From assembly GCF_000009365.1 (NCBI RefSeq), contig NC_008260.1:717501-781500 (forward strand): a stretch of DNA of 64,000 nt, read 5' to 3'. A program made the position numbers and the translations under genes. Source of the stretch: Alcanivorax borkumensis SK2 (GTDB lineage: Bacteria; Pseudomonadota; Gammaproteobacteria; Pseudomonadales; Alcanivoracaceae). Positions 6,389 to 33,857 of this stretch are shown here, piece after piece (the first letter of the stretch is position 1; the number at the start of each line of letters is the position of its first letter). The notes beneath the pieces are model-generated. The model was not told the DNA's origin. It saw only the letters and a list, made by a program, of their open reading frames with translations, and did not search any database.

Positions 6389-6462
6389 CCGATTTCCCTA
6401 TGCCACGGTTATCGCCGCAGCCCCTCTTATATTATCGTTGGAATACACGCACAGAAAAACGC

Positions 6463-6486: not shown

Positions 6487-6530
6487 GGGTTCACACTATT
6501 AGCCTTGGTGGGGGGCTACAGCTTTTACGT

Positions 6531-16365: not shown

Positions 16366-16425
16366 TTATTGTCTCAATGATTGTCTAAATTGTCTCTATC
16401 AAATAACACCTCTAGGAGATATGAC

Positions 16426-17196: not shown

Positions 17197-17217
17197 AAAA
17201 TAGGTTAGGCACGCAAC

Positions 17218-17880
17218 ATGACGATACGAATAAATGCAGATTTTTCACAACGCATCGTGGTTCAACCTAGTGACTATCACTGGGTTGAATCCCCGATGCC
17301 GGGTGTGCAACGAATGATGCTCGATAGGGTGGGTGGCGAAACTGCACGTGCCACATCGATCGTTCGCTATGAGCCTTTTAGTGAGTTCTCGCCACATATT
17401 CATTCCGGTGGAGAAGAGTTTTTTGTGCTTGAAGGCGTGTTCTCTGATGAGCATCAACGCTATGGCAAAGGCAGTTATGTACGCAACCCTATTGGCTCAT
17501 CACACACCCCTAAAATCGGTAAGGAGGGGGCGACTATTTTCGTTAAATTGCAGCAGTTCGACGAAAAAGATACAGAGCAAAAGGTGATCGATACTCAAAC
17601 GCAACCATGGTTTCAGGGGCTAGTCGGTGGCCTAAAAGTGATGCCATTGCATGAATTTGAAAGTGAACACGTCGCTTTGGTGAAGTGGGCGCCAAACACA
17701 CAATTTACTGCTCATCAGCATTGGGGTGGAGAAGAAATTTTTGTGTTAGAGGGTACTTTCCATGATGAGCATGGACGCTATCCTAAAGGCTCATGGCTAC
17801 GTAGCCCTCATCTAAGCCGGCATAGTCCCTTCACCAAAGAAGAGGGGGCTTTGATTTACGTAAAGACGGGGCATCTGTAA
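17218..17880 (+). CDS. Tandem ChrR-like cupin protein
   Basis: The 220-residue protein is two copies of one cupin unit. Each carries a metal-binding motif: HIHSGGEEFFVLEG near residue 60 and HQHWGGEEIFVLEG near 162, each followed by an FxDEHxRYxKGS strand. This matches the ChrR-like cupin family (cupin part of the anti-sigma factor ChrR), but without an N-terminal anti-sigma domain. It probably binds zinc or another divalent metal; any enzymatic role is unknown. It follows the SDR gene by 21 bases, so both are probably cotranscribed and under HxlR. Confidence 0.82.
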   Translation: MTIRINADFSQRIVVQPSDYHWVESPMPGVQRMMLDRVGGETARATSIVRYEPFSEFSPHIHSGGEEFFVLEGVFSDEHQRYGKGSYVRNPIGSSHTPKIGKEGATIFVKLQQFDEKDTEQKVIDTQTQPWFQGLVGGLKVMPLHEFESEHVALVKWAPNTQFTAHQHWGGEEIFVLEGTFHDEHGRYPKGSWLRSPHLSRHSPFTKEEGALIYVKTGHL

Positions 17881-18067
17881 CTATAATGCCGCCAATTTTT
17901 CGACTCATTGAAGCGGCGTATGTTTAGCCTGGGTAAAATAATGACACTTTATTGGTTGTTATTTCGCCGATAAATAAACGAGATTTGAGCCGAGAATTTT
18001 ACTTTCACCGTTTCAGGATAGGATGAATTCCGTGATTCTTCAGTGATCGCTTGAGGGAAAGCTGTAC

Positions 18068-18431
18068 GGACATTTTGGCGTTGCCAAGCATGGCATTAGC
18101 ATTAGGCTGGCCTGCGAGGTCTATCGCATCAAGTGAGGTTACCCCGGCGAGCTCAATGTGTCCACGGCCCTGAACCGTCAATGTGATCGACGACTACAAC
18201 CTCGAGGGATTGGGTATTGAGGCCGACTTGTCGCTACCGTCGGTTTGGTTAATACGGCCTTTTGCCCCGGCCATTGAATGGCGCGGTAAGCCCGCAGCCC
18301 TTTGCTGTGATAACGGCCCGGAGTACATACCACAGGACTTGGTAGAGTGGGCAACCGAAAAGCGGATAACGCTGATTTAGTCCAGCCTGGGAAGCCAACA
18401 CAACGCTTACATTGAACGATTCAATCGCTGA
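18068..18431 (+). pseudogene. Decayed IS3-family transposase (orfB) remnant
   Basis: Reading frames on the plus strand carry short blocks that match IS3-family OrfB. From 18083: KHGISIRLACEVYRIK, then a stop. From about 18175: VNVIDDYNLEGLGIEADLSLP, then EWRGKPAALCCDNGPEYI with the second DDE aspartate (CDNGPEY), then after a stop NAYIERFNR with the catalytic glutamate. At least two in-frame stops and a large internal deletion show it is dead. The homology ends at about 18431, exactly where the AraC-type protein becomes recognisable. No inverted repeats were found. Confidence 0.75.
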
Positions 18432-19377
18432 AGACTTGGGCGTGCCTACCGCCGCTTGGTTGGAGCATCTTGGGATCAATCCCGACAAATTCGTAAAACC
18501 CCAGATTACGATGCCTTGGCTTACTTTCCGGCAATTGGTGTTGGATGCAGGCCGTTTTAGCAATGACAAGACCTTAGGGCTGATGGTTGGAGAGCGGTTG
18601 CTCATCAATACTCACGGTATTGTTGGCTATGCTGCACTGAGTAGCGGATCTGTGCGGCAACTTGTTGATTTATTGCAGCACTATCTGGTTCTTCGAACCG
18701 ACCTGCTCACCGTGGGAACTTCTGAACGAGACGGGGAGTTTAGGCTTGATTTTTTTGAGAACCGCCCCCTGGAAGATGTTCGGCGCTCGATAATAGAGGC
18801 CACTGTTTTGGCGATTCGCAACGTTCTGGATTTCACCACCATGGGCACGAGTGAAATCCGCGAAGTTACCTTTCCTTTTGACGGTGATGAAAGGCTGGCC
18901 GAAAGTGTGTTTCGCTGCCCCGTTGCTTATAACCGGGATCTGGCTGGTTTTACCCTTCCGTTAGCGGCCATCGACACTCCTCTTAAAATGGCCAATAAGA
19001 TCAGTTTTCAGGAAGCCCTGAAAGTGTGCCAACAGGAGCTTGATCAGCTATCTACCGAGCAGACTTGGTCGGCCCGGGTGCGTCGGCTAATGTTGCAGAG
19101 CCGTCATGGTTTCCCTTCCCTCGAGATGACTGCTCGGCGTTTTCATATCACCCCAAGAACCCTACACCGTCGGCTGGTTGATGAAGGAACCTCTTATCGG
19201 GCAGTGCTAGAGGGGGTTCGTCATCAACTTGCCATTCAGTATCTGGAAAGTGGCCAGATGTCCATTCAGGAGATTTCGTTTGCCCTGGGTTACTCCGACA
19301 TCGCCAATTTCCGTAAAGCATTCAAACGCTGGGAAATGCTTGCCCCCTCTGAATATCTGAATGCTCACCGACAGTAA
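18412..19377 (+). CDS. AraC-family regulator with N-terminus replaced by IS remnant
   Basis: The product, up to 321 residues, has the arabinose-binding-like N-domain (PF12625 type, as in OruR/ArgR-like regulators) and a C-terminal AraC helix-turn-helix pair: MTARRFHITPRTLHRRLVDEGTSY then IQEISFALGYSDIANFRKAFKRW. Homologues normally have about 20 more residues before the AWLEHLGINPDKF segment. Here the frame opens at a TTG inside the transposase remnant, and the first six codons are IS-derived. No ribosome binding site is visible. The gene may be inactive or expressed from a new start. It faces the 3' end of the Rieske operon. Confidence 0.75.
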   Translation: MNDSIAEDLGVPTAAWLEHLGINPDKFVKPQITMPWLTFRQLVLDAGRFSNDKTLGLMVGERLLINTHGIVGYAALSSGSVRQLVDLLQHYLVLRTDLLTVGTSERDGEFRLDFFENRPLEDVRRSIIEATVLAIRNVLDFTTMGTSEIREVTFPFDGDERLAESVFRCPVAYNRDLAGFTLPLAAIDTPLKMANKISFQEALKVCQQELDQLSTEQTWSARVRRLMLQSRHGFPSLEMTARRFHITPRTLHRRLVDEGTSYRAVLEGVRHQLAIQYLESGQMSIQEISFALGYSDIANFRKAFKRWEMLAPSEYLNAHRQ

Positions 19378-19485: not shown

Positions 19486-21912
19486 CTAACTCGTCTTTGG
19501 GTTACACATCACCGTTTTATTGCTCCCAAACGTGGCGCTTCCCGCTGTGTCTGTGGGGGACGTGCTCTTGGCCTCGATGGGGGGCTGCATGACGATAAAT
19601 CTCGGTTTGAACATCAGGATCAACGCCGGGATTAACACCAAGGCGGTGAGCGCAGACACGGCCATCCACAGCGCGATTAACAACCCCATTTCCGCTTGGA
19701 ATCGCAAGGAAGAAAAAGCAAACCAGAACAGCATGCTGGTGATCATGGTCGCCGCGGTAATCAGCACTCCGCGGCCCGCGGTAGCGAGGGCGAATCGGAC
19801 ACTGTCGCGCAGATCACCAGACACCAGATACCGTTCGCGCACACGGTCGACGATGTAAAATCCGTAGTCTACGCCGAGCCCGATGCCGAGTGCTGCCACT
19901 GGCAGCGTGTTGATATTGAGGCCAATGCCGTAATGAGCCATGAATGCGAAGGTGCTGAGGTTGGATATCAACACAAGGGGTAGAAAAAACAAGCCCGCTT
20001 GAGGTGAGCGGTAGGCGAGGGCACAGAATAGGAAGAGCACCAACAGGGCGAGGGCGATGCTTTGTACTTGAGTCGACAGGATGACCTGATTCACCGCAGC
20101 AATGACCCCCACCACGCCTCCGGCAAGCTGATATTGCGCGCCCTCCAGAGGGTGATCGGTGATGTAGTCTTCCAGCCTAGCGATAGTGTTGCGAATGGTG
20201 TCGCCGCGTTTGTCTGTCAGCAGAAGATGGATGGCACCGTTACTGTAATCGGTGTCGGCGTAGCGCTCGATGTCACCGGGGTCGGAGCTGGCGAGATAGG
20301 TGTAGATTAACTCACTGTTGATCTCTGGCACTTTGCCAATGTCTGCGAACCTTGGATTGCCTTCATGCAGGCTGACGTTCACCTGGCGCACGATATCAGC
20401 GATTGAGACATTTGCGGCGACTTCCGGAAAGAGGCCTATCTCCCGCTGAAAATCCGACATGTGTTGCAACACTGCCGGTTGCTTGAGCGTGTCGGGCTCA
20501 TCGCCTGCCACCGCGACGAACAGGTGGTCTGCGCCGAGGAAGCGCTGGGTAATCGCTGCTGCATCCTGGTTGTATTCCGAGTCCTGCCAAAATACTGTCG
20601 AGCCTGGGCTTGCATCCCCGATTTGAATGCCCTGAGCATAGTAAGCGGTGGCCAGCATTAGTAACACGCAAGCACCTAACACGACTGCGGGGCCACGGCG
20701 GTGGTTGACCATATCGGCGATTCGGCTCAAGCCACGCTCCATGAGCGCGTTGGTATCCCGGTTATAGACGCGTACTCGTGCCCGCTCCACCGGAGCGTTG
20801 ACCCAGGACAGCAGTAAGGGAACCAGCGTTAGAACACAAAACAACATGACGCCGATCCAGATGGTGCCGATGAGCGCCACCTTCTGCAAGAAGGGGATGG
20901 GGGTGGCGGCAACCACCAGAATTGCCCCCGCATCGGTAGCAAGACCCAGCATACCGGGGCGAAACAGTTTGGAAAGTACGGCGACTGCAGCGGACTCTGG
21001 TTCCAGATTGCCTGCCAGTCGTTCCTGTTCGAAGGCAGAGGTGAATTGCACCGCGTGAGAGAGTGCTCGGGCAGAGACTACAAAGCTGATCACGATGGCT
21101 AATGGGTTCAAACTGAAACCCAGGAGCGACACAATGCCAAGCGCCCAAATGCCGGACACGAGGGCTGCGGTAAGGGGCAATAACATGCCCCGGTAGGTGC
21201 GCATTGCCAGCAACAGCAGCACCGCCACCGCGCCTACAATCGCCAACGAAATACGCATGGTTTCGGGCAGTTTCTGCAGCACCAGGCTATTGATCACGGG
21301 CTCTCCCACCACGCGCACCTGCAGCGTTGGGGAGCGGTAGGGCTCGGTGAGTTGCTGCACGTCGTTGGCCAGCGATTCGGTATCGATTAAGTGATCGAAG
21401 AAGTCGACGGTGATCAGCGCCGCCGTTAAATCCCGCGAGACATAACGTCCATGCACCAGTGGGTTGCCAATAACCTGGCTACGTAACTCGGCGATCTCCC
21501 GCGGCGTGGAGGGCAGGTCGGGCCACATCAGGGGCTGTGACTCGATGCCATAGGTGGAGGCGCGAATGGATTTCAGCTTCTTTGAGGCCAGGGAGGTGAT
21601 TTGCAGGGGGTTCACCCCTGGTATCTTGCGCAGCCCGTCGGTAATCCCTTTTATGGCCGCGAGCACATCGGGTTCGAACAGGTCTCCTTCGTTGACCTCG
21701 AGCATAATGCTGACCAGGTTTTCACTGCCGAAGCCTGCTTTGAATCGATTGTTGGTGTCGATGTAAGAGTGACCGCTTGGCTGCAGGTCCGAGAACTCGG
21801 TGCCAATTTCCAGGCGTGTAGCGCTCCACAGGAAACCGATGGTCATCAACACGGTCAATGCCATTAGGATGCGGCGGTGACGAATGCTCCATTGCGCGAA
21901 TGCGTTTATCAT
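19486..21912 (-). CDS. MMPL/RND-family transporter
   Basis: This 808-residue inner-membrane protein has 12 predicted helices in two repeats: TM1 near residue 15, a large periplasmic loop (about 40-215), five helices (about 220-370), a second helix and loop (about 400-605), then five more to about 770. The sterol-sensing-like sequence GLGVDYGFYIVDR in the second half is the usual MMPL/RND proton-relay region. It is a hydrophobe-exporter (HAE2) or MmpL-type pump, alone without membrane-fusion or OMP partners. The ATG at 21912 has GGGAA upstream. It is the last gene of the Rieske operon, 24 bases after the YCF48 gene; such transporters often accompany DUF1302/DUF1329 genes. Confidence 0.88.
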   Translation of the reverse strand: MINAFAQWSIRHRRILMALTVLMTIGFLWSATRLEIGTEFSDLQPSGHSYIDTNNRFKAGFGSENLVSIMLEVNEGDLFEPDVLAAIKGITDGLRKIPGVNPLQITSLASKKLKSIRASTYGIESQPLMWPDLPSTPREIAELRSQVIGNPLVHGRYVSRDLTAALITVDFFDHLIDTESLANDVQQLTEPYRSPTLQVRVVGEPVINSLVLQKLPETMRISLAIVGAVAVLLLLAMRTYRGMLLPLTAALVSGIWALGIVSLLGFSLNPLAIVISFVVSARALSHAVQFTSAFEQERLAGNLEPESAAVAVLSKLFRPGMLGLATDAGAILVVAATPIPFLQKVALIGTIWIGVMLFCVLTLVPLLLSWVNAPVERARVRVYNRDTNALMERGLSRIADMVNHRRGPAVVLGACVLLMLATAYYAQGIQIGDASPGSTVFWQDSEYNQDAAAITQRFLGADHLFVAVAGDEPDTLKQPAVLQHMSDFQREIGLFPEVAANVSIADIVRQVNVSLHEGNPRFADIGKVPEINSELIYTYLASSDPGDIERYADTDYSNGAIHLLLTDKRGDTIRNTIARLEDYITDHPLEGAQYQLAGGVVGVIAAVNQVILSTQVQSIALALLVLFLFCALAYRSPQAGLFFLPLVLISNLSTFAFMAHYGIGLNINTLPVAALGIGLGVDYGFYIVDRVRERYLVSGDLRDSVRFALATAGRGVLITAATMITSMLFWFAFSSLRFQAEMGLLIALWMAVSALTALVLIPALILMFKPRFIVMQPPIEAKSTSPTDTAGSATFGSNKTVMCNPKTS

Positions 21913-21936
21913 AGTCGGTTTTCCCAAGTAGTTTGG

Positions 21937-22953
21937 CTATCGCCGTGATATCAGAGAGGAGGTGTCTGGGATCGCGCTAACGATGGCGTCTCCAACCACC
22001 AGTAGCTTGTCGCCCGCCGCTTGTATGTCAGTGAACCAGGCTGCGCTCGATCCGGTTTCAAGCCGTTGGGTTTGCGCTAGGCCTGTGGTGGGCTCGGGTA
22101 AGTCAATTTGTATGAGCGCGCCGTGCTCGCCGGTGATCCACCAGCGGTTGTCCGCTGTGGCAACGGCGAACCAGTGGAGAGAAGCCGTCGCATCCTGCAT
22201 CCCAGGCAGTTCAAAAGGTTGCCAGCGACCGTTGAATAGACGTAGCACCGTTCCCTGTAAACCAACCGCCAGGCCTTGGCATGCGTTGTCCAAGCCAATC
22301 GAGGTAAGGGTGATATCTGTGGCGCTCGGCATCGTCACCCAGGTGGTTCCAGCGTCGATGGAGGAGAGAATCTGACCGAACTCACCGACGACCATGAGCT
22401 GCCTGCCGTGATCACAGCTGCTTACCCCATGCCAGGTGATATCTTCCATCTCCACCATGGCTTCCCAGTGCTTGCCAACGTCAGCACTACGCAAAATGGC
22501 ACCACCGGCGCCCACGGCCCAGGCCGTGCCGCTAGCATCCAGGTGGACTTGCAGTAGCTTGTTGTTCCACTGAGACTTTGGAACCTCCCTTACGGATGAC
22601 CAGTTTAGGCCGCCATCCTCGCTGCGGATGATTTGGTTGTCATTGCCAACGGCAATGATTTGCTTGGCATCCCATGCCGCCACCGCCTGCAAGTCGGGGT
22701 GCCCATAGCCGCGTTGCACTGTCCAGTTGTCACCTCCGTCGATGGAGTGCAGCACCTTGCCGCCGTCGCCCACCACCCAGGTGTTGCCCTGGACAGCGGT
22801 GATGCCGTAGTAGCGATCGGTTGGCACCTGCGCGGGCTGGCTGATGGGCGGAGGGGACACTTTGGGTTGATAAAAGGCCGCAACGGCGAGTAATCCGCTC
22901 GTCAGCCCCAAGGACACGCATAACTCGATTAGACGTTGGGTTCGGGAGGTCAT
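21937..22953 (-). CDS. YCF48/BNR-repeat beta-propeller protein
   Basis: This 338-residue protein starts with a signal anchor or signal peptide (hydrophobic residues 11-28) followed by a proline-rich linker. A beta-propeller of the YCF48/HCF136 type follows, with repeats of the form WVVGDGGKVLHSIDGGDNW, IIRSEDGGLNW, ILRSADVGKHW and ILSSIDAGTTW. It is likely periplasmic and a partner of the RND protein encoded next. Homologues occur with MMPL and DUF1302/DUF1329 genes in clusters for hydrophobic compounds. The biochemical role is unknown. It begins three bases after the hydrolase stop. Confidence 0.85.
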   Translation of the reverse strand: MTSRTQRLIELCVSLGLTSGLLAVAAFYQPKVSPPPISQPAQVPTDRYYGITAVQGNTWVVGDGGKVLHSIDGGDNWTVQRGYGHPDLQAVAAWDAKQIIAVGNDNQIIRSEDGGLNWSSVREVPKSQWNNKLLQVHLDASGTAWAVGAGGAILRSADVGKHWEAMVEMEDITWHGVSSCDHGRQLMVVGEFGQILSSIDAGTTWVTMPSATDITLTSIGLDNACQGLAVGLQGTVLRLFNGRWQPFELPGMQDATASLHWFAVATADNRWWITGEHGALIQIDLPEPTTGLAQTQRLETGSSAAWFTDIQAAGDKLLVVGDAIVSAIPDTSSLISRR

Positions 22954-22956
22954 GGT

Positions 22957-23802
22957 CTATTCACTCAGGTAGCTGAGCACAACGCGATTGAAGCGCTCGG
23001 GTAGTTCGGTCTGCCAGTGGTGAGCGCCCTGTCCTTCGATAAACAATTGAGCGTTTGCAAACTGGTTGAGAAACAGCAGGGGCACGTCCGGGCCGCCAAA
23101 CCAGTCGTGCAGACCCCACAGGCAAAGGGTGGGGACGACATTGCGGTGCAAGTCACCGAGCAGCGATTCGGGTTGCCCCATGAAACCGGGAGTGCGGGCG
23201 ACTTCAAGCAGTTCCGGGTCTGTGCTGTTGGCAAAGCGATCGTTCACCGTCCAGTCAGTGAGCTTGCTGTCATCGTGCATCTCGTAATCGGCCAGTAAAC
23301 GTCGCATCTTTTCTGGGGTCGGACCTTCGCCCCCGTAGTAGTCGAGGATAATGTTGGCCGCGTGTTTGCTCATCAGTTTCAATGGATCAATAACCCCGCC
23401 AAACATCGGCTGGGCGCCCATCAATACCAGTTTATTGACGCGCTCAGGGTGGTCGATCGCCAGTTTGATGGCCGCACAGCCGCCGAAGGACTGACAGACC
23501 AGGTGCGCTCGCGGGATGCCGACCAGGTCCATGAATTCAGCGAGCATGCTGGCGTGGAAGCTGTACATCGGCGCCTCAACCACTAACTTGCTGGATTGGC
23601 CGTAGCCGGGCATGTTGTAGAAGAAACACTGGTACTGTTCCAGGAACGCCGGTGCGTTGTAGTAGAAGTTGCCGAAGCTGGTGGCTCCGGGGCCACCACC
23701 GTGGAGGAAAATCAGCGGCTCGCCAGTACCCGCGCTTTGGTAGTGCAGCTGGTAGCCGGCTTCGGTAGTAACAAATTGGTCCTCAAGTTCAAGTGGTTCC
23801 AT
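22957..23802 (-). CDS. Alpha/beta hydrolase, meta-cleavage-product type
   Basis: The 281-residue single-domain hydrolase has the oxyanion loop LHGGGPGATSFGNF near residue 33, which is typical of C-C bond hydrolases such as BphD, CarC and HsaD. The nucleophile Ser105 is in CQSFGG (usual N/C-S-MGG), the acid is in GLHDWFGG and the catalytic His in GAHHWQTE. It may hydrolyse a carbon-carbon bond of a ring-opened product or an ester. No extradiol dioxygenase is encoded in the operon to make the classic substrate, so the reaction is open. AGGAG precedes the ATG. Confidence 0.88.
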   Translation of the reverse strand: MEPLELEDQFVTTEAGYQLHYQSAGTGEPLIFLHGGGPGATSFGNFYYNAPAFLEQYQCFFYNMPGYGQSSKLVVEAPMYSFHASMLAEFMDLVGIPRAHLVCQSFGGCAAIKLAIDHPERVNKLVLMGAQPMFGGVIDPLKLMSKHAANIILDYYGGEGPTPEKMRRLLADYEMHDDSKLTDWTVNDRFANSTDPELLEVARTPGFMGQPESLLGDLHRNVVPTLCLWGLHDWFGGPDVPLLFLNQFANAQLFIEGQGAHHWQTELPERFNRVVLSYLSE

Positions 23803-23843
23803 GCGTGACTCCTGCTGAAGAGTTGGAGTGTGGATACGAGTAA

Positions 23844-25178
23844 CTATTGGTACTGCTGGGTGATTTCGATGGGGCGGCTACAGGTGTCGATGGCGCTACG
23901 GATCAGCACCTGAATCAAGCGGTAGCAATCGTCCAGGTGTACCCGATTCATCGGCAAGCTATCTTCCGGGTCCGGCTCCTGATGGCGGAAGGGCACGCCC
24001 AGGCGAGCTGCCGGAACGCCCCATTGGCGGATGACCGACAGATCGGTGTAACCACTCATATTCAGGAAGGGTTCGTGCGGGGTTTGCTCCACGTCTTCCC
24101 AGGCTCGGATCATCGATTGAATGATCCAGTTATCCGGCGAAGTGGTGGCCCCGGGAATCGCAAGGGTTGCCTCAAGCTCTGTGACCACGTCGGGGTGTTG
24201 CTGCGATAGCTCGGTCAACATGGCTTGTAATTCGCGTTTTACTTGTACCGGATCGGTGCGGGGGCTGGGTCTGATATCCACGTGCAATACCACATCGGCG
24301 GTGGTGATGATGGGCTTGTGTGGCCATCCACCCTCAATGGCGGAAATGCCTCCCTGGGGGGCGACCAGCCCTGACGTGTGCCGGGCAGTGTAGGTGGGAA
24401 ACCAGGCTTCAAGGGCTTCGATGACCTTGGCCACCTGTGGGAAGGGGTTTTGATCCTGCGGCATCATATGGCGCACGCCAACGTAGCCCATGGCGCCTTT
24501 GACACGGATGGTGAAGTTGCAAATACCGACCTCTTCCCAGGCGACCGCGTACACCGGTTTGCACATGACGCAGTAGTCAGGCCGATAGCCACGCTGCAAC
24601 ATAAACATAACCCCGGCGCCGTGGCCGATATTGCGGCGACTGAATCCCGGTCTGGACAGCGCGGTCATGCCGCCCGCGCCCAACCCGACGGTGAGTTCGC
24701 CGGGTAATTCCAAGCCCGCCTTGGCGATGCAGGTGGCGGCGGTGGTCACACAGGCGGCGTAGGCTTTGGGGTTTTCTGCACCGAGCCCGCTGATCTCATC
24801 GCCTTCAAGGCGGGCTTGTGGGCGCAGCATGCTGGGCAAGGGCTGTCCTGCCCAGCGCTCCTCTTCGTCGGAGCCACCGAGGTGGGTATCAAAGGAGGCA
24901 TACAGTAGAAGTTCCGGCCCTTGTTTGCTGCGAGAGGGCAGTTTCCCAATGGCATTCGCCTGTTGGTCGTCCAAGTATTGGGTTTGCCCCTGGAGGCCGT
25001 TGGCCGTCATATGGTCGGCCATGTAGCGGGCCAGCTCGGCTTCTTCCCCGGTGGGGCTTGGGATGTTAACCATGTCCATGAGGAGCTGTTTGAATTGCTC
25101 GCGATCGAATTGGGATTCGGCGGCGTGCACCATGTCTTGATACCCCTCGACGGGGGCCGGTGGCTGTTGTTGGCTCAT
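23844..25178 (-). CDS. M20-fold (ArgE/DapE-like) protein without usual metal ligands
   Basis: This 444-residue protein follows the M20 peptidase/deacetylase layout: N-terminal half domain, dimerisation domain (about 205-320), C-terminal half. The metal-binding and catalytic positions look changed. The usual HxD reads SFD (95-97), the DxK site reads ENPK (135-138), the Glu-Glu pair reads Gly-Gly (169-170), and the GEP site reads CKP. The end is conserved enough to align (RHQEPDPEDSLPMNRVHLDD). It may be a pseudo-enzyme, or use other residues. It starts three bases after the reductase stop. My alignment is by eye. Confidence 0.75.
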   Translation of the reverse strand: MSQQQPPAPVEGYQDMVHAAESQFDREQFKQLLMDMVNIPSPTGEEAELARYMADHMTANGLQGQTQYLDDQQANAIGKLPSRSKQGPELLLYASFDTHLGGSDEEERWAGQPLPSMLRPQARLEGDEISGLGAENPKAYAACVTTAATCIAKAGLELPGELTVGLGAGGMTALSRPGFSRRNIGHGAGVMFMLQRGYRPDYCVMCKPVYAVAWEEVGICNFTIRVKGAMGYVGVRHMMPQDQNPFPQVAKVIEALEAWFPTYTARHTSGLVAPQGGISAIEGGWPHKPIITTADVVLHVDIRPSPRTDPVQVKRELQAMLTELSQQHPDVVTELEATLAIPGATTSPDNWIIQSMIRAWEDVEQTPHEPFLNMSGYTDLSVIRQWGVPAARLGVPFRHQEPDPEDSLPMNRVHLDDCYRLIQVLIRSAIDTCSRPIEITQQYQ

Positions 25179-25181
25179 GGG

Positions 25182-26216
25182 TTATATGCCCTCCTGGGCT
25201 GGAATGAAGGATTCGAAATGAATGTGGGCAGGGGGAATGCCGCGTGCTTCGAGCGAGCTGACGGCGGCGTCTACCATCGGCGGCGGGCCACATAGAAAGA
25301 CCTCGGTGTCGGGTCCCAATGCCGCATCGGGCACCCCCTCGGTGGCGTACCCCAGCGCGCCTTGCCAATCGGTGTGGGGCTCTACTAGCGTGACCCGCAG
25401 ATTCAGATTGGGTAGCCATTCAAGTCGCGCGGCTAGTTCGTCGAGATAAAACAGCTCGCTTAGCCGGTTCACCCCGAAATGCAAGTGGATGGGGTGCGCC
25501 CGCCAGCGCATTTCCGCAAGAGTGTCGAGGATCGACAGCACCGGCGCGAGGCCAGTGCCTCCGGCGATCAGCACCACGGGGCCTTGCGGCGGCTGCTGCA
25601 TTTTGAATGCACCATGGGGGCCGTCGATCTCCAACTCCGCATCAATGGCGCATTCTTTCTCCAGGTAGGTCGACATCGCGCCGTCGTCGAGCAGCCGAAT
25701 CAGAAAGCGCATGGATGGCAGCTGCTCCACGGTCGAGCTCATGGAATAGGGCCGCCAAATGTCGGTGTTGGGCACCCGCAACAGGTAGTACATCCCCGGA
25801 AGAAACTGAGCATCGCGTTCGGCTTCGTCGACCTCCAGGGTCAGCTCAACCACCGAGTCATTGAGCCGATGAATGTCTTCGACCCAAGCGCGGAAGCGCT
25901 GGGGTCGATACCGCTGTAGCTCATTGAACCCGTAGTCCATGCGGATATGCGCATCATTTTCTGGCTGCGCCAGGCAGGTGAGTACCTTGCGCTGCTCGAT
26001 CTCGCGGGGAAGCAGTGCAATGCTGGTGTCGCTGCGCATGCGCACCACACCGTTCTCTACGGTGCCGACGCAGGAACCACAACTGCCGGTTTTGCACTGG
26101 TGAAACAGTTGCAGTCCGGCGTCAAGCGCAGCCTGCAGCACCGTCTGGTCTGGCGCTACTTCGATGCGCCGGGTGGTGTCGTCGGCGAACTGGATCAGCA
26201 CTTGGGGGTTCGTCAT
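25182..26216 (-). CDS. Ferredoxin-NAD(P)H reductase of Rieske oxygenase
   Basis: The 344-residue electron-transfer protein has an N-terminal plant-type [2Fe-2S] domain (Cys41, Cys46, Cys49 and Cys81, in CKTGSCGSC and LTCLAQ). An FAD domain follows (RPYSMSS at 155-161), then an NAD domain (AGGTGLAPVLSI and FLCGPPPMVD). This is the BenC/CarAd-like class IB layout. It would pass electrons from NAD(P)H to one or both neighbouring Rieske proteins without a separate ferredoxin, since none is encoded here. It starts three bases after the first oxygenase stop. Confidence 0.92.
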   Translation of the reverse strand: MTNPQVLIQFADDTTRRIEVAPDQTVLQAALDAGLQLFHQCKTGSCGSCVGTVENGVVRMRSDTSIALLPREIEQRKVLTCLAQPENDAHIRMDYGFNELQRYRPQRFRAWVEDIHRLNDSVVELTLEVDEAERDAQFLPGMYYLLRVPNTDIWRPYSMSSTVEQLPSMRFLIRLLDDGAMSTYLEKECAIDAELEIDGPHGAFKMQQPPQGPVVLIAGGTGLAPVLSILDTLAEMRWRAHPIHLHFGVNRLSELFYLDELAARLEWLPNLNLRVTLVEPHTDWQGALGYATEGVPDAALGPDTEVFLCGPPPMVDAAVSSLEARGIPPAHIHFESFIPAQEGI

Positions 26217-26219
26217 CTT

Positions 26220-27458
26220 TTATCTCCGTCGCTTGGTCCCAAGCTCCATGGGGGGTGTTTGAATACCTCGTGCATGACGGGCCACTAGCTTTCTCCAGGC
26301 CACAATTACGGCATCCATCGCGCAGAGCTTTTCTTCAGCGAAGCCGACATCGTTTTCATAAAACGGCTGCATTGAATCCCGCGCCCACAGATCGTCGTCG
26401 TTGAAATCGTGAAAGACGGCGTCACGCAGGTAGTTTTCGTATTGGTCGGTAAATTCATCGCGCTCGGTTTTGGTCGGTGCGGTTTTGACCAATAGCTCCC
26501 AGTACTCGTAACTTTTGTCATCAATGGGAACGTACATTTCGTGGGCGGTGATCCCCGGAAATGGAAAGTTTTCCACTTTGAGCACGCCGGGCAGCCACAT
26601 GGAGGTGCGTAGTCCGAGTGCTGGGGTCCCGCCGGAAGCCCGCACGTTGAGCATGGTGTTCTCGAAAATGGGTTCGTAGTGGGAGTGGCCGTCGGCATCG
26701 GGCGGGTACATGTTCATCATGCCCTTGGGGCCATCGGGGTCTTCGAATGCTTTGACGGCACCGTCTGAGGTGGGTTTGAATCCCAGCGGTATCGCCATGT
26801 CGTGGGCATAGACGAGCGGTGATTTCCAGTGGATGAGTACATGCCCGGGATCGAAACCGTTCTCGACCGCTAGGCGCCAGTTGGATTCGCCTTTGCGGCG
26901 AATACCGAGAACGATGGCGTCATCATCGGTGAGGTTAGGGCTGTAGTGGGCGTAGTCCTTGGACTCTTGTGGTGGCAGGTCGGATTCCAGCGGTGGAATG
27001 GGCGCATAGTCTGCATCGCCGACAAACACCCAGATGATCGAGTATTTCTCTACGATCGGGTAGGTTTTGATCGATGCGTTGCCGATCAGAGGGTCATCGG
27101 GTGCGGCGAGAATGGTCTTGAGCTCGCCATCGTTCAAGCCGTAGGTGTAGCCGTGGTACCAGCAGGTAACCATCCCTTCTTTAAAGCAGTAGGGTTTTTT
27201 CGACAGCGGCACACCACGGTGGCAGCAGCGGTCTTCGAGTGCGTAGAGCTGGTTATTCTCTCGTCGTAGCAGAATGGGTTCGCCGCAGATTTTGGTGGAA
27301 CCGAAAGCGCCTTCTTCCAGCTCGTGGCTAAACAGTGCCGGATACCAGTGGTTCTTCAATCCCCACTTGGCATCGACATAGGGCTGGTAGCTCTTGGCAG
27401 CGGTTGCGCCTTGGGCTGGAGGGGTGACTTGGGATTGGGTTGGGTCGGGTGTGCTCAT
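26220..27458 (-). CDS. Rieske non-heme iron oxygenase alpha subunit, copy 1
   Basis: This 412-residue protein has a Rieske [2Fe-2S] centre (Cys78 and His80 in RCCHRG, Cys99 and His102 in CWYHGYTY) and a mononuclear iron site (Asp203, His206 and His210 in ENGFDPGHVLIH). The D-P-G-H spacing and single-subunit layout resemble homotrimeric CarAa / 2-oxoquinoline 8-monooxygenase-like enzymes; no beta subunit is encoded. AGGAG precedes the start. It shares long identical blocks with the next gene upstream in the operon (copy 2), so the pair arose by duplication. The substrate is unknown. Confidence 0.92.
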   Translation of the reverse strand: MSTPDPTQSQVTPPAQGATAAKSYQPYVDAKWGLKNHWYPALFSHELEEGAFGSTKICGEPILLRRENNQLYALEDRCCHRGVPLSKKPYCFKEGMVTCWYHGYTYGLNDGELKTILAAPDDPLIGNASIKTYPIVEKYSIIWVFVGDADYAPIPPLESDLPPQESKDYAHYSPNLTDDDAIVLGIRRKGESNWRLAVENGFDPGHVLIHWKSPLVYAHDMAIPLGFKPTSDGAVKAFEDPDGPKGMMNMYPPDADGHSHYEPIFENTMLNVRASGGTPALGLRTSMWLPGVLKVENFPFPGITAHEMYVPIDDKSYEYWELLVKTAPTKTERDEFTDQYENYLRDAVFHDFNDDDLWARDSMQPFYENDVGFAEEKLCAMDAVIVAWRKLVARHARGIQTPPMELGTKRRR

Positions 27459-27508
27459 AGCATGTACTCCTGGGGTATGAACGTGATGGTTGTCACTGTG
27501 ATGTTGTG

Positions 27509-28744
27509 TTATAGGGTGCGTGATTTACGTGGTCGAGAGAGCTCCTTGGGCGGGCTTTGGATGCCACGCGCGTAGCCTGCCACCAGCTTTCTCCAGCCAA
27601 TGATGACGGCGTCGAGTGAGCACAATTGCTCAGCGGACCAGCCGGCATCCTGCGCGTAGAACGGTTGCATGGCGTCACGGGCAACCAGGTCCTGGTCGTT
27701 AAAATCATTAAACATGGCTTTTTTGAGGTAGTTTTCGTACTGGTCGACGAAGGCTGTCTCGTCTTCGGGGGTTGGCGTTTCGCAGGCGATGAGCTCCCAG
27801 TACTGGTAGGTCTGGTCATCAATGGGCACATACATCTCGTACATGGACATGCCTGGGTAGGGCGCGTTCTCTACCAGCAAGACGCCGGGAAGCCACATGG
27901 AGGTACGCAGCCCTGCGGGAACGTTTTGCCCCCCAAATGCTGAGACGTCGAGCATTTCGTTGTGCATCACCGGCTCGTAGTGGGCGACGCCATCGGCGCC
28001 AGGCACATACTCATTAAGGATGCCGCGCGGTGCGTTGTTCTCAACAAAGGTGGTGGTCGCGTGTTCGGTTACTGGTCGAAAACCAAGTGGCAGAGCCCAG
28101 TCCTGGGCGTACACCCAGGGAGAATCCTGATGTACCAGGACATGCCCCGGATCAAAACCATTCTCGGAGGCCAGGCGCCAGTTAGCGGCACCTTGGCGAC
28201 GGATGCCACGTACGGTGGTATTGGGGTTAAGCAGGTGGGCGCAGTAGTGATCTTCTCCGGCTGCGCGTAGCTGCGGGGGCAAGTCGTGGGAAAGTGGTGG
28301 GGGCTCGCCAAAGTCGGCGTCTCCGACGAACACGAAGATCATGCCTGCCGCCTCAGTGACCGGATAAGTTTTGATGCTGGCATTGCCAATCAACGGGTCA
28401 TCAGGGCTGCCGATGATGGTTTTCAGCTCGCCGTCACCGAGCCCGTAGGTGTAGCCGTGGTACCAGCAGGTGACCGTGCCTTCCTTGAAGCAGTAAGGTT
28501 TTTTTGACAGCGGCACGCCGCGGTGGCAACAGCGGTCCTCCAGCGCGTGTACCTGGCCCGCCTCGCGGCGCAGCAAAATGGGTTCACCACAGAGAGTGGT
28601 TGCATCGAACTCACCCTCTTTAAGTTCTTCGCTGAATAGCGCCGGAAACCAATGGTTTTTGAGCCCCCAGCGGGCCTTGATATAGGGCGCGTAACTGCTA
28701 TGGCCTGTTGCGGCCGGCCTGTTGTTGGATATGGATGCGTTCAT
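27509..28744 (-). CDS. Rieske non-heme iron oxygenase alpha subunit, copy 2
   Basis: This 411-residue paralogue of copy 1 keeps every catalytic position: Cys72 and His74, Cys93 and His96 for the Rieske cluster; Asp198, His201 and His205 for the catalytic iron. The stretch CCHRGVPLSKKPYCFKEG is the same in both copies. Differences gather in the C-terminal catalytic half (for example QDSPWVYAQDW against WKSPLVYAHDM), consistent with a different substrate or hetero-oligomer formation. GGGAG lies seven bases before the start at 28744; the 90-codon longer frame is not coding. It comes before copy 1 in the transcript with a 50-base gap. Confidence 0.92.
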   Translation of the reverse strand: MNASISNNRPAATGHSSYAPYIKARWGLKNHWFPALFSEELKEGEFDATTLCGEPILLRREAGQVHALEDRCCHRGVPLSKKPYCFKEGTVTCWYHGYTYGLGDGELKTIIGSPDDPLIGNASIKTYPVTEAAGMIFVFVGDADFGEPPPLSHDLPPQLRAAGEDHYCAHLLNPNTTVRGIRRQGAANWRLASENGFDPGHVLVHQDSPWVYAQDWALPLGFRPVTEHATTTFVENNAPRGILNEYVPGADGVAHYEPVMHNEMLDVSAFGGQNVPAGLRTSMWLPGVLLVENAPYPGMSMYEMYVPIDDQTYQYWELIACETPTPEDETAFVDQYENYLKKAMFNDFNDQDLVARDAMQPFYAQDAGWSAEQLCSLDAVIIGWRKLVAGYARGIQSPPKELSRPRKSRTL

Positions 28745-28794
28745 GTCATGACTCCCTTGGGTGTGTGACCGATTGTCCCAGTGCGGTGGCTTGC

Positions 28795-30081
28795 TCAGTA
28801 AAGGCCCTGCTTGCCGGTGGCCAGTCGTTGCATGATCCGTGGAGAGAGCATTTCCTCTTTGAACTGAGGGTCGTTCTGCACCATGATGCCGGTGCCGTCG
28901 ATGAACGTGGCGCGTTGGGCTTTCAGGTCGATGGCTTGTACGTAGTTGGCGGAGGGAATGGTGTAGCCATCCGGTGTTGTCGACTGGGTGATCCACAGCC
29001 GCCACATGCGCCACAGTTCGTCGTTCTTGTCGTAGAACTCACCGGCGTAGGGCTGCGGGTAGTCAGTGCCGACATAGAGAATTTTTCGGCCGTAGGGGTG
29101 CTCTGAAGGCGGGGTGCCTTCCAGTACGAAGACTTCGGTGGGACGCCAGACCACATGTTCGGGGTTTGGGTTGATCCAGGGCGCAGACTGCTCGATCAAG
29201 TCTTCGTAGTGCTTGGTCATCATGGGCTCGAGGTAGGAAACCGCGAGGATGGTGCGTTTGCCCAGTATGCGGAAATCGGAATACCACAAGGGGTAACTGT
29301 CTATCCCATTGTTGTCGTCATTGAGCATGTCCATCTGCGGTTGGTTATCCATCCAGACGGCGGCGCCTGCGGTGCGTTTGATGCGTCGGATGGACTTGAC
29401 GTAAACGTAGGCTTCGTCTGCCTTCCCCTGCGCAGACTGCACGGTGTACACACCGAGACCAGCCAGATCATAGGGTGCGCTCAGTGCCACCACGGACTTT
29501 TGCTTGATGGTGCCATCGCCACGGTGTCCGGGCTGCTCATCGGTGTAGCGCCCAACCATGCGGAACTTGTAGTTGTCACCCACAAACTGGCGAACTATCC
29601 CTTTATCGAAGCCAGCGATGGTGATGGGGCCGCCCACTGCACTGTTGTCGGCATTGGTGGGAATCGCATAAAACAAATTCCATGCGAGCTTCCAGCCAGC
29701 GTGTGGGTCTGCCAGATCCAGTTTTGGAAACGGAATGCCCGCAACGTAACCTGTTGGGGTCTTGGTTTGGGTATCGAAGCCCACTTTTGGCGCGTAGGTT
29801 TTTGTGGCAGCAATATAGCGGGAGTCGGGCTGCATCGGCCTTGCCGGCGCGAGCTTTATGCGCAATCCGTGTTCGCGAATACGCATAATGAGGTGTTCGG
29901 TTAGCAGCTCCTTGAGTGGGGTGCCCTGATAATGATCGTCCAGGTGCTCGTCAAGGTTCTGCGCCGACAGCACAAACCCGGTTGGAACCTCCTCTGCCAG
30001 TGCTGGCAGAGCGGTTATCCCCAGTGAGAGGATCAGAGCGGCCTGAGCATTGCGCAGTGCGCGAAGAAATTGATAAATCAT
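28795..30081 (-). CDS. DUF1329 periplasmic protein
   Basis: The 428-residue protein has a cleavable signal peptide (about 29 residues, ending LPALAEE) and the DUF1329 fold, which is related to the LolA/LolB lipoprotein-carrier family and so may bind a hydrophobic molecule in the periplasm. Characteristic pieces are VGFDTQTKTPTGYVAGIPFP and the C-terminal WRMWRLWITQS. DUF1329 and DUF1302 genes are usually neighbours, as here (56-base gap). The proposed role is carriage of a hydrophobic substrate between membranes; this is inference. AGGAG precedes the ATG. Confidence 0.9.
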   Translation of the reverse strand: MIYQFLRALRNAQAALILSLGITALPALAEEVPTGFVLSAQNLDEHLDDHYQGTPLKELLTEHLIMRIREHGLRIKLAPARPMQPDSRYIAATKTYAPKVGFDTQTKTPTGYVAGIPFPKLDLADPHAGWKLAWNLFYAIPTNADNSAVGGPITIAGFDKGIVRQFVGDNYKFRMVGRYTDEQPGHRGDGTIKQKSVVALSAPYDLAGLGVYTVQSAQGKADEAYVYVKSIRRIKRTAGAAVWMDNQPQMDMLNDDNNGIDSYPLWYSDFRILGKRTILAVSYLEPMMTKHYEDLIEQSAPWINPNPEHVVWRPTEVFVLEGTPPSEHPYGRKILYVGTDYPQPYAGEFYDKNDELWRMWRLWITQSTTPDGYTIPSANYVQAIDLKAQRATFIDGTGIMVQNDPQFKEEMLSPRIMQRLATGKQGLY

Positions 30082-30137
30082 TGTGTGCTCCTGTCTACCG
30101 TTGTCATACCGCTGGGCAGCGGGGGTTGGGTTTAGAT

Positions 30138-31688
30138 TTAGAACTGGTAGGTGATACGTGCCATGGCTTGGTCGCTGTTGTGAAACGCGCCGATCAAGCT
30201 TTGACCCTGTGGATCCGTGGGGTCGCTTTTGTAGCGCCCACCGTTGAAGAAATCGGCTTCGAACATCAGCCGCCAGTGATCTCCGAACGACAGGCTTACA
30301 CCGGGTACGAGGATGGTGCCGTCGTATGCTAGGTCGTAGATCGCTGCGAAGGAGAGGTTCACCGAATCATGCCGAAATGGCATCATTATCAGAGCGGTCA
30401 GGATGCTGGAGTGCTCCTTTTTGGGAGAGCCGAAATCCACCACTTGTTCGCTGTCTTTGTGATCGATAATCCAGGTGTCGAACAGCTGCAGGCTGATCGA
30501 CGTGGGCGCGCTGGTGCCGAGCCAACTCTGGGTGCGTAGGGGTTTGTCCAGGCCGATCATTGAGCGCAGAGTGTCTTTTTCAATGATGCCATTGCCTCCG
30601 GCAGACGGGGTGTTGGCGAAACCAAAGTTGTAAGGTTTGTCTGGTGTATAGGCCAGTTCCGCACGGAACGTGGCATTGATGTTTTCCAGGTAGCCATTGA
30701 GTGTGGCACCGAAGATGTCTATCTCTGGGTAGATAAACTCGGCAAATCCATTCTCCGGGGCGTCGCCATAAGCCTGAAACGCCGGGTTGAAGCCACCACT
30801 GAGGTCCGCGAAGTTCACCACAGGGTCCTGGCTCAAGGTGTGGTAATAGTTGAGGGTATAGCTGACACCTAAGGCTGTGCCCGACCAGCGAATGCCGTAC
30901 GAGGGATCATCTGCATCCGCCTTGGAGTGATCGTAGTTCACCGGAATCAGCCCCGCGGTATTGAATCCGCGGCTGCCATTGAGGCTCCAACGCCCACCGA
31001 AGGTATCCAGGCTGTTGCCCATGGCGTCGTCATCATCGATCCCAGGCCGCAGCACAAGTTGTAAAGAATTGTCCGAATTGACCGAAAAGTATTGCAGGTT
31101 GGCCAACCATAGTGGCTTGCGCCACTCCTCGTTCTCCGGTTCCAGAAAAGCGCGCCAGGTCTGGTCGTAGCCGTGAATTACATCCATTGCCTGGAAGAAA
31201 TCGGTTTCCCCCCACACCACCTGCTGTTTGCCGATGCGGGCTGAAAACTGCGAGCCCATCGGGATGTCCAAGTAGGCCTCGCGCAGTTCTTCGTCGCTGT
31301 AGTCGTTTTCAAAGTCTGAGCGAGGTAGAGGGGGGGTATTCATTGATCCAGTTACTGCAGTGAGGTCTTCCAAGCGATCGAGGTAGTTGGTCATGTATTC
31401 GCGGGTCAAGCGGCCTATTGCGACCCCATAGGCCCAGCCCAAATCGGCATCGACTTGCAGCAGTAAGGTGGTTCTAGCCATAGCCAGGTCGTACTTATCG
31501 TCTTCTTGAGTTTCCGGCACGTCGTTGAGATTAGTGGCGAGGTGCTGTCGCAGATAACCGGAGGTACGAATGTCTGCGGCGTGGACAATAGAGGGGGCAA
31601 TGAGGGCGCTAGTGGTCACGGCACAAAGGAGGGGCACCATTGCGAACCTTAGAGGGTGACCTGTAGCGACTATGGGCGTTTTTTGCAT
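30138..31688 (-). CDS. DUF1302 outer-membrane protein
   Basis: The 516-residue protein has a signal peptide (cleavage after IVHA near residue 37), alternating beta strands typical of an outer-membrane barrel, and a terminal phenylalanine (TYQF), the barrel-assembly signature. The motif QQVVWGETDFFQAMDVI is typical of DUF1302. It is likely a porin or channel for the operon's substrate, acting with DUF1329 and the MMPL protein. TGGAG precedes the start. It is the first gene of the nine-gene operon and lies just behind the TetR-controlled promoter. Confidence 0.9.
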   Translation of the reverse strand: MQKTPIVATGHPLRFAMVPLLCAVTTSALIAPSIVHAADIRTSGYLRQHLATNLNDVPETQEDDKYDLAMARTTLLLQVDADLGWAYGVAIGRLTREYMTNYLDRLEDLTAVTGSMNTPPLPRSDFENDYSDEELREAYLDIPMGSQFSARIGKQQVVWGETDFFQAMDVIHGYDQTWRAFLEPENEEWRKPLWLANLQYFSVNSDNSLQLVLRPGIDDDDAMGNSLDTFGGRWSLNGSRGFNTAGLIPVNYDHSKADADDPSYGIRWSGTALGVSYTLNYYHTLSQDPVVNFADLSGGFNPAFQAYGDAPENGFAEFIYPEIDIFGATLNGYLENINATFRAELAYTPDKPYNFGFANTPSAGGNGIIEKDTLRSMIGLDKPLRTQSWLGTSAPTSISLQLFDTWIIDHKDSEQVVDFGSPKKEHSSILTALIMMPFRHDSVNLSFAAIYDLAYDGTILVPGVSLSFGDHWRLMFEADFFNGGRYKSDPTDPQGQSLIGAFHNSDQAMARITYQF

Positions 31689-31727: not shown

Positions 31728-31760
31728 TTATAAGGATCAACCAAACGTTTGTTTGGGAAT
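31728..31760 (-). promoter_or_regulatory. Promoter of the nine-gene Rieske operon
   Basis: On the minus strand a perfect TATAAT (31728-31733) sits about 40 bases before the DUF1302 start codon. The -35 position (about 31751-31756) has no good consensus and lies within operator site A, so repression by the bound regulator would be direct. Confidence 0.55.
31741..31756. promoter_or_regulatory. TetR-type operator, site A
   Basis: CCAAACGTTTGTTTGG contains half sites CCAAAC and GTTTGG around GTTT, plus the 10-bp palindrome CAAACGTTTG. It overlaps the -35 region of the operon promoter. Confidence 0.65.
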
Positions 31761-31874: not shown

Positions 31875-31890
31875 CCAAACAAACGTTTGA
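31875..31890. promoter_or_regulatory. TetR-type operator, site B
   Basis: CCAAACAAACGTTTGA equals the reverse complement of site A at 15 of 16 positions. It overlaps TTGACG (31887-31892), a candidate -35 for the tetR gene, so it fits autoregulation. Confidence 0.65.
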
Positions 31891-31959: not shown

Positions 31960-32658
31960 ATGACAGATCGATCCGCAGTGCCGGTTGATAGCCCGGCTGG
32001 AAGTACACGCACCGTAATTCTTGAAAAAGCGTTAGAGTTGTTCGCAGAGACCGGCTTCAACGGCGTATCAATGCGACGCATTGCGCAAGAGGTTGGCATC
32101 AATCCAGCGACGCTTTACCACCATTTTGTCCACAAAGAAGATTTGTATGAGCAGGTACTGCGTTTCGCCTACGCAGAGCAGGCTGCGCATTTTTCAGCAT
32201 TGGTATCCATTGAAGGAACACCCCAGAGCCAGCTCGGTGAGTTCATTCGAGAGTTCGCGTTTTACATAGCTAAGGATCAGCATTTTTTTCGGCTGGTGAA
32301 GCGAGAGCAGCTGGAAGGTAACAGCGAACGTCTGAAGATGCTGGTGGATCTATTGTTTGGTAAACAGTACGAGGCGATGGTGCGAAGCGTTGGCCGAGTA
32401 ACCCAGGCTTTCGATACCCACATGCTAGTGACGTCGCTTCTGGGCTTGGTGTTGCACCACTACGAAACTCGCCACATGCGCCAGTTTTTTGTTGAATATA
32501 TGCCTTCACAAGATGACCCCGAGGTCGTTGCTGACCATTGCTGTCGGTTGTTCTTTTTTGGTATTCAGGGGACGGGAGCGGCCCAAGAGGTGCCTTATCG
32601 TTCGGAGCAGAGTCTCCTATCCGCTGACGGCGAGCATTCGCGCGATGGGGCTGGTTGA
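31960..32658 (+). CDS. TetR-family regulator of the Rieske operon
   Basis: The 232-residue protein has an N-terminal TetR helix-turn-helix (about 20-65): ILEKALELFAETGFNGVSMRRIAQEVGINPATLYHHF. The rest is the helical ligand-binding domain, with a region rich in aromatic and hydrophobic residues. It is divergent from the nine-gene operon, and the shared 270-base region holds two matching operator-like sites. It most likely represses the operon and itself until the substrate or a CoA ester of it binds. GGGAG lies nine bases upstream of the ATG. Confidence 0.9.
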   Translation: MTDRSAVPVDSPAGSTRTVILEKALELFAETGFNGVSMRRIAQEVGINPATLYHHFVHKEDLYEQVLRFAYAEQAAHFSALVSIEGTPQSQLGEFIREFAFYIAKDQHFFRLVKREQLEGNSERLKMLVDLLFGKQYEAMVRSVGRVTQAFDTHMLVTSLLGLVLHHYETRHMRQFFVEYMPSQDDPEVVADHCCRLFFFGIQGTGAAQEVPYRSEQSLLSADGEHSRDGAG

Positions 32659-32855
32659 GCGCGGATTTCTTGGGCGGCTACTTCAATCTTTCCTTGGTGC
32701 TAGCGGTACATCCTGTCGCTGGAAATCAAACCGCGGGTCGCATTAGCATGAGCCCGTGGTGCGGCTATACGGCCTGAATCGTGTAGGTTACTTTGTTGAC
32801 GTGAATCTTCGGGTTTAACACCATTCATAGTGCCGGCGTTATGGGAGTATGCATT

Positions 32856-33857
32856 TTGTCTGTAAGCGTACCGTTTTCATTGCTGGAGCTAGCGTCGATC
32901 CGTGAGGGAGACTCCGTTGGGCAGACGTTGGCTAACAGTGTGGCTTATGCACGCCATGCAGAGTCGTTGGGGTTTCAGCGGTTTTGGCTGGCGGAGCACC
33001 ATAATATGCAGGGGATCAGCAGTGCAGCTACCTCGGTGCTGGTTGGGCATATTGCCGGCGCCACCGAGTCCATTCGGGTCGGGTCTGGCGGGGTGATGTT
33101 GCCGAATCACCCGCCGTTAGTGATTGCGGAGCAATTTGGAACGCTGGAGATTTTGTACCCCGGTCGGATTGATTTGGGGTTGGGCCGCGCACCGGGAACC
33201 GACCCGATGACCAGCCGCGCCCTGCGCCGTGAAGGTCTTGGGGCTGAGCAGTTCCCCGATGATGTGGCCGAGCTACAGCGCTTGCTGGGGCCACTGGATA
33301 CGTCACAGGGGGTTAATGCGATTCCCGGCGCTGGCACTCAGGTACCGATCTGGCTACTGGGCTCCAGTTTGTACAGCGCCAAGCTGGCAGCGCAGCGGGG
33401 GTTGCCCTATGCCTTTGCCGGGCATTTTGCGCCGCGACTGTACCGTGAGGCGCTGCGTATCTATCGGGATCAATTTCAGCCCTCTGCCCAGCTGAGCAAA
33501 CCCTACGCCATGTTGGCGTTGCCTGCGGTGCCGGCGGACTCCGACGAAGAGGCTCATTACCTGACCACCACCAGTTACCAACGTATTCTTGCTTTGTTTC
33601 GTGGCCAGCCGTTATGGATGAAACCGCCGGTGCAAAGCATGGACGGCTTGTGGAATCCACAAGAGGAAGCAGGGGTAAAAGATTTCCTGGGCTTACAGTT
33701 GCTGGGAACGGCAGCCTCCATGCAGGGGCAGCTGGATCAGCTGCTGGACTCCGTGGAGGTGGATGAGTTGATGGTGACGGTGGATCTTTATGATCCGGTG
33801 AAGCGTCGTCATGCGTTGGATATTCTGGCGTCGTTGGCGCAGTTTCAGGCGGTGTGA
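32856..33857 (+). CDS. Luciferase-like flavin-dependent monooxygenase (MsnO8-type LLM)
   Basis: The protein of about 333 residues is a bacterial-luciferase-like TIM barrel. Landmarks are [14 protein letters not shown] at the start, [39 protein letters not shown] and [15 protein letters not shown]. It would use reduced flavin and O2; the substrate is unknown. I placed the start at a TTG (32856) with GGGAG eight bases upstream; an in-frame ATG 15 bases earlier lacks a ribosome binding site. It stands alone and may be unrelated to the neighbouring operon. Confidence 0.85.

Follow-up and report, generated by a model that had tools for sequence, protein, structure and literature searches.

Systems related to the locus considered here have been described in two separate contexts. 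In Castellaniella defragrans, the tetrapartite HAE3 system AmeABCD, of which AmeA is a DUF1302 protein, was reported to serve monoterpene detoxification by export; disruption of ameB by a transposon reduced growth on several of these compounds, and the composition and organisation of the cassette were conserved (PMC6394551). In quinoline breakdown, 2-hydroxyquinoline is converted to 2,8-dihydroxyquinoline and then, with release of ammonium, to 8-hydroxycoumarin, which is followed by 2,3-dihydroxyphenylpropionate and meta-cleavage (PMC9029321). The window analysed here is a 64,000-nucleotide stretch of Alcanivorax borkumensis SK2 (NC_008260.1, positions 717,501 to 781,500), in which nine contiguous and uninterrupted open reading frames (ORFs) span 31688-19486 of the minus strand. 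These genes encode the four AmeABCD families together with two Rieske oxygenases related to 2-oxo-1,2-dihydroquinoline 8-monooxygenase (OMO) and an uncharacterised, enzyme-like M20-fold protein. The operon is proposed to be a TetR-controlled, acquired unit for oxidation and export (i.e., detoxification), for which a 2-quinolinone-like lactam is the likeliest substrate; this proposal is given tentatively, at a little below an even chance. The substrate, the order of the steps and the direction of transport are suggested by the sequence and by analogy with described relatives.

OMO-like oxygenases within an AmeABCD-type gene set

The intergenic gaps, from the first gene to the last, were 56, 50, 50, 3, 3, 41, 3 and 9 bases, in agreement with a preliminary description of nine minus-strand genes separated by 3 to 56 bases. 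The domain assignment was confirmed for eight of the nine gene names given there (DUF1302, DUF1329, two Rieske proteins, reductase, hydrolase, YCF48 and MMPL) by Pfam, NCBIfam and PDB searches, and the M20 fold was recovered by a structure model. The absence of a CoA ligase and of a ring-cleavage gene from the operon was also borne out.

The Rieske oxygenase alpha subunits RO1 (27509..28744) and RO2 (26220..27458) were 62% identical to each other. The start of RO1 was placed at ATG 28744, because the automatically called ORF, which begins at a GTG, overlaps the DUF1329 gene. Both proteins carried a Rieske domain and the PF11723 catalytic domain (E 2.4e-117 for RO1, scanned with the longer start, and 1.5e-90 for RO2). 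The best PDB match of both was OMO/OxoO (1z01), with 365 bits for RO1 and 389 bits for RO2, whereas the best matches to carbazole 1,9a-dioxygenase (CarAa) reached 322 and 323 bits, respectively. In alignments with 1z01 and CarAa, the CxH/CxxH motifs of the Rieske domain and the His-His-Asp residues of the active site were intact, and C72, H74, C93, H96, H201, H205, D350 and D352 were invariant in the alignment of five proteins; these Cys/His and His-His-Asp residues are presumed to bind iron. In a tree of 34 rows, RO1 and RO2 fell in a clade of 11 (100/99), which was nested in a clade of 25 (100/99) holding OMO, and both CarAa rows lay outside the clade shared by OMO and the window proteins. 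Unlike OMO, the window oxygenases occur as two tandem copies and form a sister clade. Their identities to OMO were 44% and 46%; hence, by sequence comparison, RO1 and RO2 are OMO-like proteins and not OMO orthologues. PF11723 was uncommon in the order, with matches in 10 of 341 genomes, the present genome included, and one of these matches was marginal. The adjoining Fer2-FAD-NAD reductase (25182..26216; PF00111, PF00970 and PF00175) resembled the BenC/AntC/MmoC type, with sub-cut-off matches to NF045803 and NF040810, and would serve as the electron supply.

The envelope genes of the window belong to the four AmeABCD families. The DUF1302 outer-membrane protein (30138..31688; PF06980, E 8e-23), the hydrophobic N-terminus of which was judged by eye, is AmeA-like, and the DUF1329/LolA-like periplasmic protein (28795..30081; PF07044, E 2.5e-40) is AmeB-like. 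The COG4447/YCF48-type propeller (21937..22953; PF14870, E 2.4e-12) and the MMPL/HAE3-type RND transporter (19486..21927; PF03176, E 2.3e-31) correspond to AmeC and AmeD. The likeness of the transporter to AmeD refers to the shared family and to a TIGR00921 (HAE3) match of 178.7 bits, below the cut-off. All four families thus occur in one operon, as in AmeABCD, but the cassette of the window is split, with five catalytic genes between its B and C members. A second DUF1302-DUF1329-YCF48-MMPL set was found elsewhere in the same genome (L054, 896-7966); this set was contiguous, and its MMPL and YCF48 proteins were 26-27% identical to those of the window.

The coupling of envelope genes to catalytic genes, which had been put forward in the preliminary description, was repeated in a genome of the same order (locus L072, G991). 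There, a PF11723 Rieske protein 64% identical to OMO lies beside DUF1302 (39% identity), DUF1329 (33%), MMPL (47%) and YCF48 (32%, a match truncated where the stretch ends) proteins. The locus also holds two hydrolases, a reductase and a BphC-like dioxygenase, followed by 2-oxopent-4-enoate hydratase, acetaldehyde dehydrogenase and HOA aldolase genes. An OMO-like Rieske gene thus also occurs with these envelope families in an arrangement other than that of the window.

The M20-fold protein, the hydrolase and their relatives

The M20-fold protein (23844..25178) had no Pfam match, and NCBIfam gave sub-cut-off matches of the ArgE/DapE type alone. Its predicted structure (mean predicted local distance difference test score 87.1, predicted template modelling score 0.89) was assigned to the M20 fold by structure comparison, and the nearest structure was 5-nitroanthranilate aminohydrolase (5k8m-5k8p), with 406 aligned residues. 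The metal-binding motif residues named below are those of M20 proteins in general. When compared with a stretch of 5-nitroanthranilate aminohydrolase, metal-motif residues were lost in all 44 family members aligned, the window protein included. The His of HxD was replaced by Ser, Ala, Gly, Asn or Pro, and the two motif Glu residues (GE and AE) were replaced by Gly and an invariant Lys207. D97 and N136 of the active-site motifs were kept in the family, as in 5-nitroanthranilate aminohydrolase, whereas the position of Arg289 was not conserved. PMC11903332 counts 5-nitroanthranilate aminohydrolase among the enzymes whose mechanism involves either a covalent aryl ester or a metal hydroxide, and the loss of the metal site argues against a copy of this mechanism.

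The alpha/beta hydrolase (22957..23802) was nearest to HsaD/BphD, with NCBIfam scores below the cut-off, and the positions of the Ser-Asp-His triad were present. It carries HGGGPG, CQSFGG and AHHW motifs, of which the latter two differ from those of the LigB-linked hydrolase type. In many actinobacterial loci, the HGGGPG type coexists with a separate second hydrolase next to LigB; the enzyme labelled as a C-C-type hydrolase in the preliminary description may therefore work on something other than the product of ring cleavage. Among the 23 PDB matches of the hydrolase at E<=1e-10, none bore the name of an HOD-type enzyme (cofactor-free quinolone dioxygenase), which does not exclude this type.

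Of 35 loci with a member of the M20 family, 34 also had a Rieske gene nearby. Four proteobacterial loci from two lineages (L039, L040, L075 and L076) combined an M20 gene with an amidase gene and with a Rieske protein whose identity to OMO was 79-82%. The preliminary statement that the catalytic set matches no nameable pathway was therefore too strong, since the Rieske, reductase and M20-like genes have counterparts in these clusters. A larger group of 30 loci (L006-L035) comprised Actinomycetota, one Chloroflexota and one deltaproteobacterial metagenome-assembled genome (MAG). A LigB dioxygenase was present within 9 kb in all 30, and the one that was typed was 3-carboxyethylcatechol-dioxygenase-like. 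A Rieske match was found in 29; a hydrolase of the HGGGPG type was present in 21, and 25 had a second one of the GESLGG type. PF11723 was present in all four Rieske proteins scanned (L006, L007, L011 and L028). The M20 family, the Rieske gene and the HGGGPG-type hydrolase are shared with the window, whereas LigB and the GESLGG-type hydrolase distinguish these clusters from it, and an envelope-set match occurred in none of the 30 loci. Through its locus neighbours, the M20 family appears to be tied to quinoline/8-hydroxycoumarin chemistry.

Apart from its own genome, the M20 protein had no match at E<=1e-60 in the other genomes of a class sample (369) and a phylum sample (398), both drawn from larger groups. 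On plasmids, 26 records matched it, and among the 20 matches listed only that of Cupriavidus necator C39 exceeded 26% identity. Near the OMO-type cluster of this plasmid (L040, 3096-9380), AtuA-like, luciferase-like and ABC-transporter genes were observed. Beside the OMO-amidase-M20 cluster of another genome (L039, 11125-15964; G031), zinc alcohol dehydrogenase, Asp/Glu/hydantoin racemase, cyclase-family and CoA-transferase III genes were observed.

Regulation, acquisition and genomic neighbourhood

A divergent TetR-family regulator (31960..32658, plus strand; PF00440, E 3.5e-17) lies upstream of the operon, and a pair of CCAAACAAACGTTTGG-like sites was found in the TetR/DUF1302 intergenic region, with a chance expectation of 0.06 in the window. 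Copy 1 (31741..31756, minus strand) is exact, and copy 2 (31875..31890, plus strand) has one mismatch, so that the two are inverted with 15 identical nucleotides. The exact sequence CAAACAAACGTTTG occurred just twice in the whole genome, once in each of these sites; with one mismatch, five more genome matches were obtained, one of which overlapped copy 1, and the reversed-pattern control gave zero matches. The nine genes are likely a single TetR-controlled transcript, in which repression by TetR is predicted. The operator pair thus supports the earlier suggestion that the envelope and catalytic genes form one inducible unit. Promoter-like sites (3 vs a shuffle mean of 7.6) and terminator-like sites (21 vs 16.2), counted over the whole region and both strands, were uninformative on operon splitting. 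Another TetR gene elsewhere in the genome (L055, ~5208-8283), which is accompanied by a LolA-like gene and a 434-aa gene without assignment, has a one-mismatch version of the window's operator-like site just upstream.

A MAG locus (L005) has the same gene order, namely TetR, DUF1302, DUF1329, the Rieske pair, reductase and M20, the last of which is cut short where the contig stops. Its identity to the window was 85-94% in the matched segments, with the second Rieske gene in two pieces, and its TetR protein occupied the same divergent position at 85% identity. This locus has two operator-like sites with two mismatches each, and as many were obtained in 1 of 200 shuffles.

The operon was probably acquired laterally, as judged from comparative genomics. 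None of the 16 congeners searched had the M20 gene, and in the search of relatives it was present in one of 36 genomes besides its own (G031, 36% identity). Four congener loci were compared, of which L079 covers both flanks and L077, L078 and L080 cover one flank each. In the operon-free L079, Luc and SGNH genes on one flank adjoin rlmA, FAD mono-oxygenase and dinB genes on the other. The Luc-rlmA distance was ~2.2 kb there, with one trypsin-like match between them, and ~17 kb in the window.

Several neighbours were considered as pathway members. The luciferase-like mono-oxygenase (32841-33857) was rejected, since it is present near rlmA, dinB and SGNH in L079 without the operon, and the FAD mono-oxygenase (13323-14936) was rejected because that locus has an FAD mono-oxygenase near the same genes. 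Membership of the SDR, cupin_7 and AraC genes (16381-19377) was unsupported, as they lie on the opposite strand and have 47.7% G+C vs 57.7% for the operon; this block adjoins the operon and apparently has a different origin. Further away in the window (6531-8844, minus strand), a histidine-specific methyltransferase gene overlaps an FGE-sulfatase-type gene, a pair that we take to resemble an EgtD/EgtB-like pair.

Proposed function and alternative explanations

The earlier suggestion that a hydrophobic ring compound is oxidised was upheld as probable. For the quinoline route, the M20-bearing clusters of other genomes would provide a hydroxylase of the OMO type, an amidase or alpha/beta hydrolase to open the lactam, a protein with the aminohydrolase fold and, in some of these genomes, a dioxygenase of the dihydroxyphenylpropionate type; hydroxylation, opening and nitrogen removal are proposed to follow in this order in the window as well, where the subsequent cleavage step is lacking. 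According to the proposed mechanism, one or both OMO-like oxygenases, fed by the single reductase, would hydroxylate a 2-quinolinone-type N-heteroaromatic lactam. The alpha/beta hydrolase would then open the lactam, a step that an amidase-signature enzyme may carry out in the OMO-type clusters. Subsequently, the M20-fold protein would, although it lacks the usual metal site, either remove the nitrogen or rearrange the product of opening; as a suggestion only, metal would not be needed if an ortho-aminophenol product were hydrolysed as its imine tautomer. By analogy with AmeABCD, the pump would expel the substrate, the hydroxylated product or both. A more specific proposal, which we hold to be possible but rather doubtful, is that the M20-fold proteins of Actinomycetota, Chloroflexota and Proteobacteria are a new family of metal-free hydrolases. 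Once the lactam of a hydroxylated 2-quinolinone-type compound has been opened, they would release its ring nitrogen as ammonia, with invariant K207 in place of an M20 metal ligand, and would fill the unassigned step from 2,8-dihydroxyquinoline to 8-hydroxycoumarin/2,3-dihydroxyphenylpropionate.

Genome-wide searches gave no matches to LigB (PF02900), BphC_D1 (PF22632) or intradiol dioxygenase (PF00775), and the five matches to the glyoxalase family (PF00903) were all in short frames of 128-240 aa. Because the genome lacks these ring-cleavage genes, partial oxidation and export (detoxification) fit better than uptake and growth, and the ring carbon is probably not assimilated. The preliminary description had spoken of uptake, a term set aside here since the characterised relative AmeABCD was reported as an exporter. 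Nevertheless, the operon might import and assimilate a hydrophobic ring compound, with the envelope set as an uptake channel and with ring cleavage by an unrecognised enzyme elsewhere. The genes of the meta-cleavage route beside the four envelope families and the Rieske gene in L072 agree with such a route, as does the impaired growth of the C. defragrans ameB mutant; however, the missing ring-cleavage families and the short glyoxalase-family frames speak against it, and PMC6394551 itself concludes export. Assimilation is considered unlikely.

It is similarly improbable that the substrate is a hydrophobe without an N-heterocycle (terpenoid, steroid-like or alkyl-aromatic) and that the M20-fold protein processes an amide or ester or acts as a binding protein. 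The envelope families match a monoterpene-linked exporter (PMC6394551), and the hydrolase is nearest to the steroid enzyme HsaD, but the window oxygenases belong to the OMO side of PF11723, and in two lineages the M20 family is found with genes that share 79-82% identity with OMO. Angular dioxygenation of the carbazole type, with the hydrolase acting on a meta-cleavage product, is quite unlikely: CarAa proteins are PF11723 relatives and the second-best PDB matches, and the hydrolase is nearest to HsaD/BphD, but both CarAa rows fall outside the clade of OMO and the window proteins, LigB and BphC_D1 are missing from the genome, and the car locus (L046, pCAR3) lists two meta-cleavage subunits and no M20 product among 16 features of an incomplete gene table.

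Several observations weigh against oxidation and export of a 2-quinolinone-like lactam. The identities of RO1 and RO2 to OMO are low enough that the substrate may differ, and the presence of two tandem copies is unexplained. The four OMO-linked M20 proteins are 35-36% identical to that of the window and form their own long branch, the M20 family is devoid of the metal-motif residues of 5-nitroanthranilate aminohydrolase, and no M20 match was found in the 18 kb fetched for L072. On the Rieske tree, linkage to M20 was unclustered (10 changes, with as few in 175 of 500 shuffles, the label being known for some rows). Furthermore, the five Rieske proteins of non-proteobacterial type that were compared (L006, L007, L011, L013 and L028) form a distant branch with 29-32% identity to OMO. 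The assignment of export draws on a single relative of described function and on membership of the same families.

The Rieske and envelope families are already known, and the gene combination and, above all, the M20 family tied to OMO genes and lacking its metal motif would be new. Neither this M20 family, nor a combination of DUF1302, DUF1329 and Rieske genes, nor one of Rieske, meta-cleavage, M20, hydrolase and MMPL genes, nor a described system matching the Rieske-hydrolase-M20-LigB clusters was found in the literature searched, which covered few subscription journals. The M20-fold protein, with its amidase or alpha/beta hydrolase partner, is a candidate for the deamination step in the 8-hydroxycoumarin route of quinoline breakdown. 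An AmeABCD-type cassette interrupted by an oxidation module, in a genome that lacks the ring-cleavage families tested, points to an oxidise-and-expel system rather than a food pathway. If this proposal is true, the handling of heterocycles would be added to the biology of Alcanivorax borkumensis SK2, a model alkane specialist.

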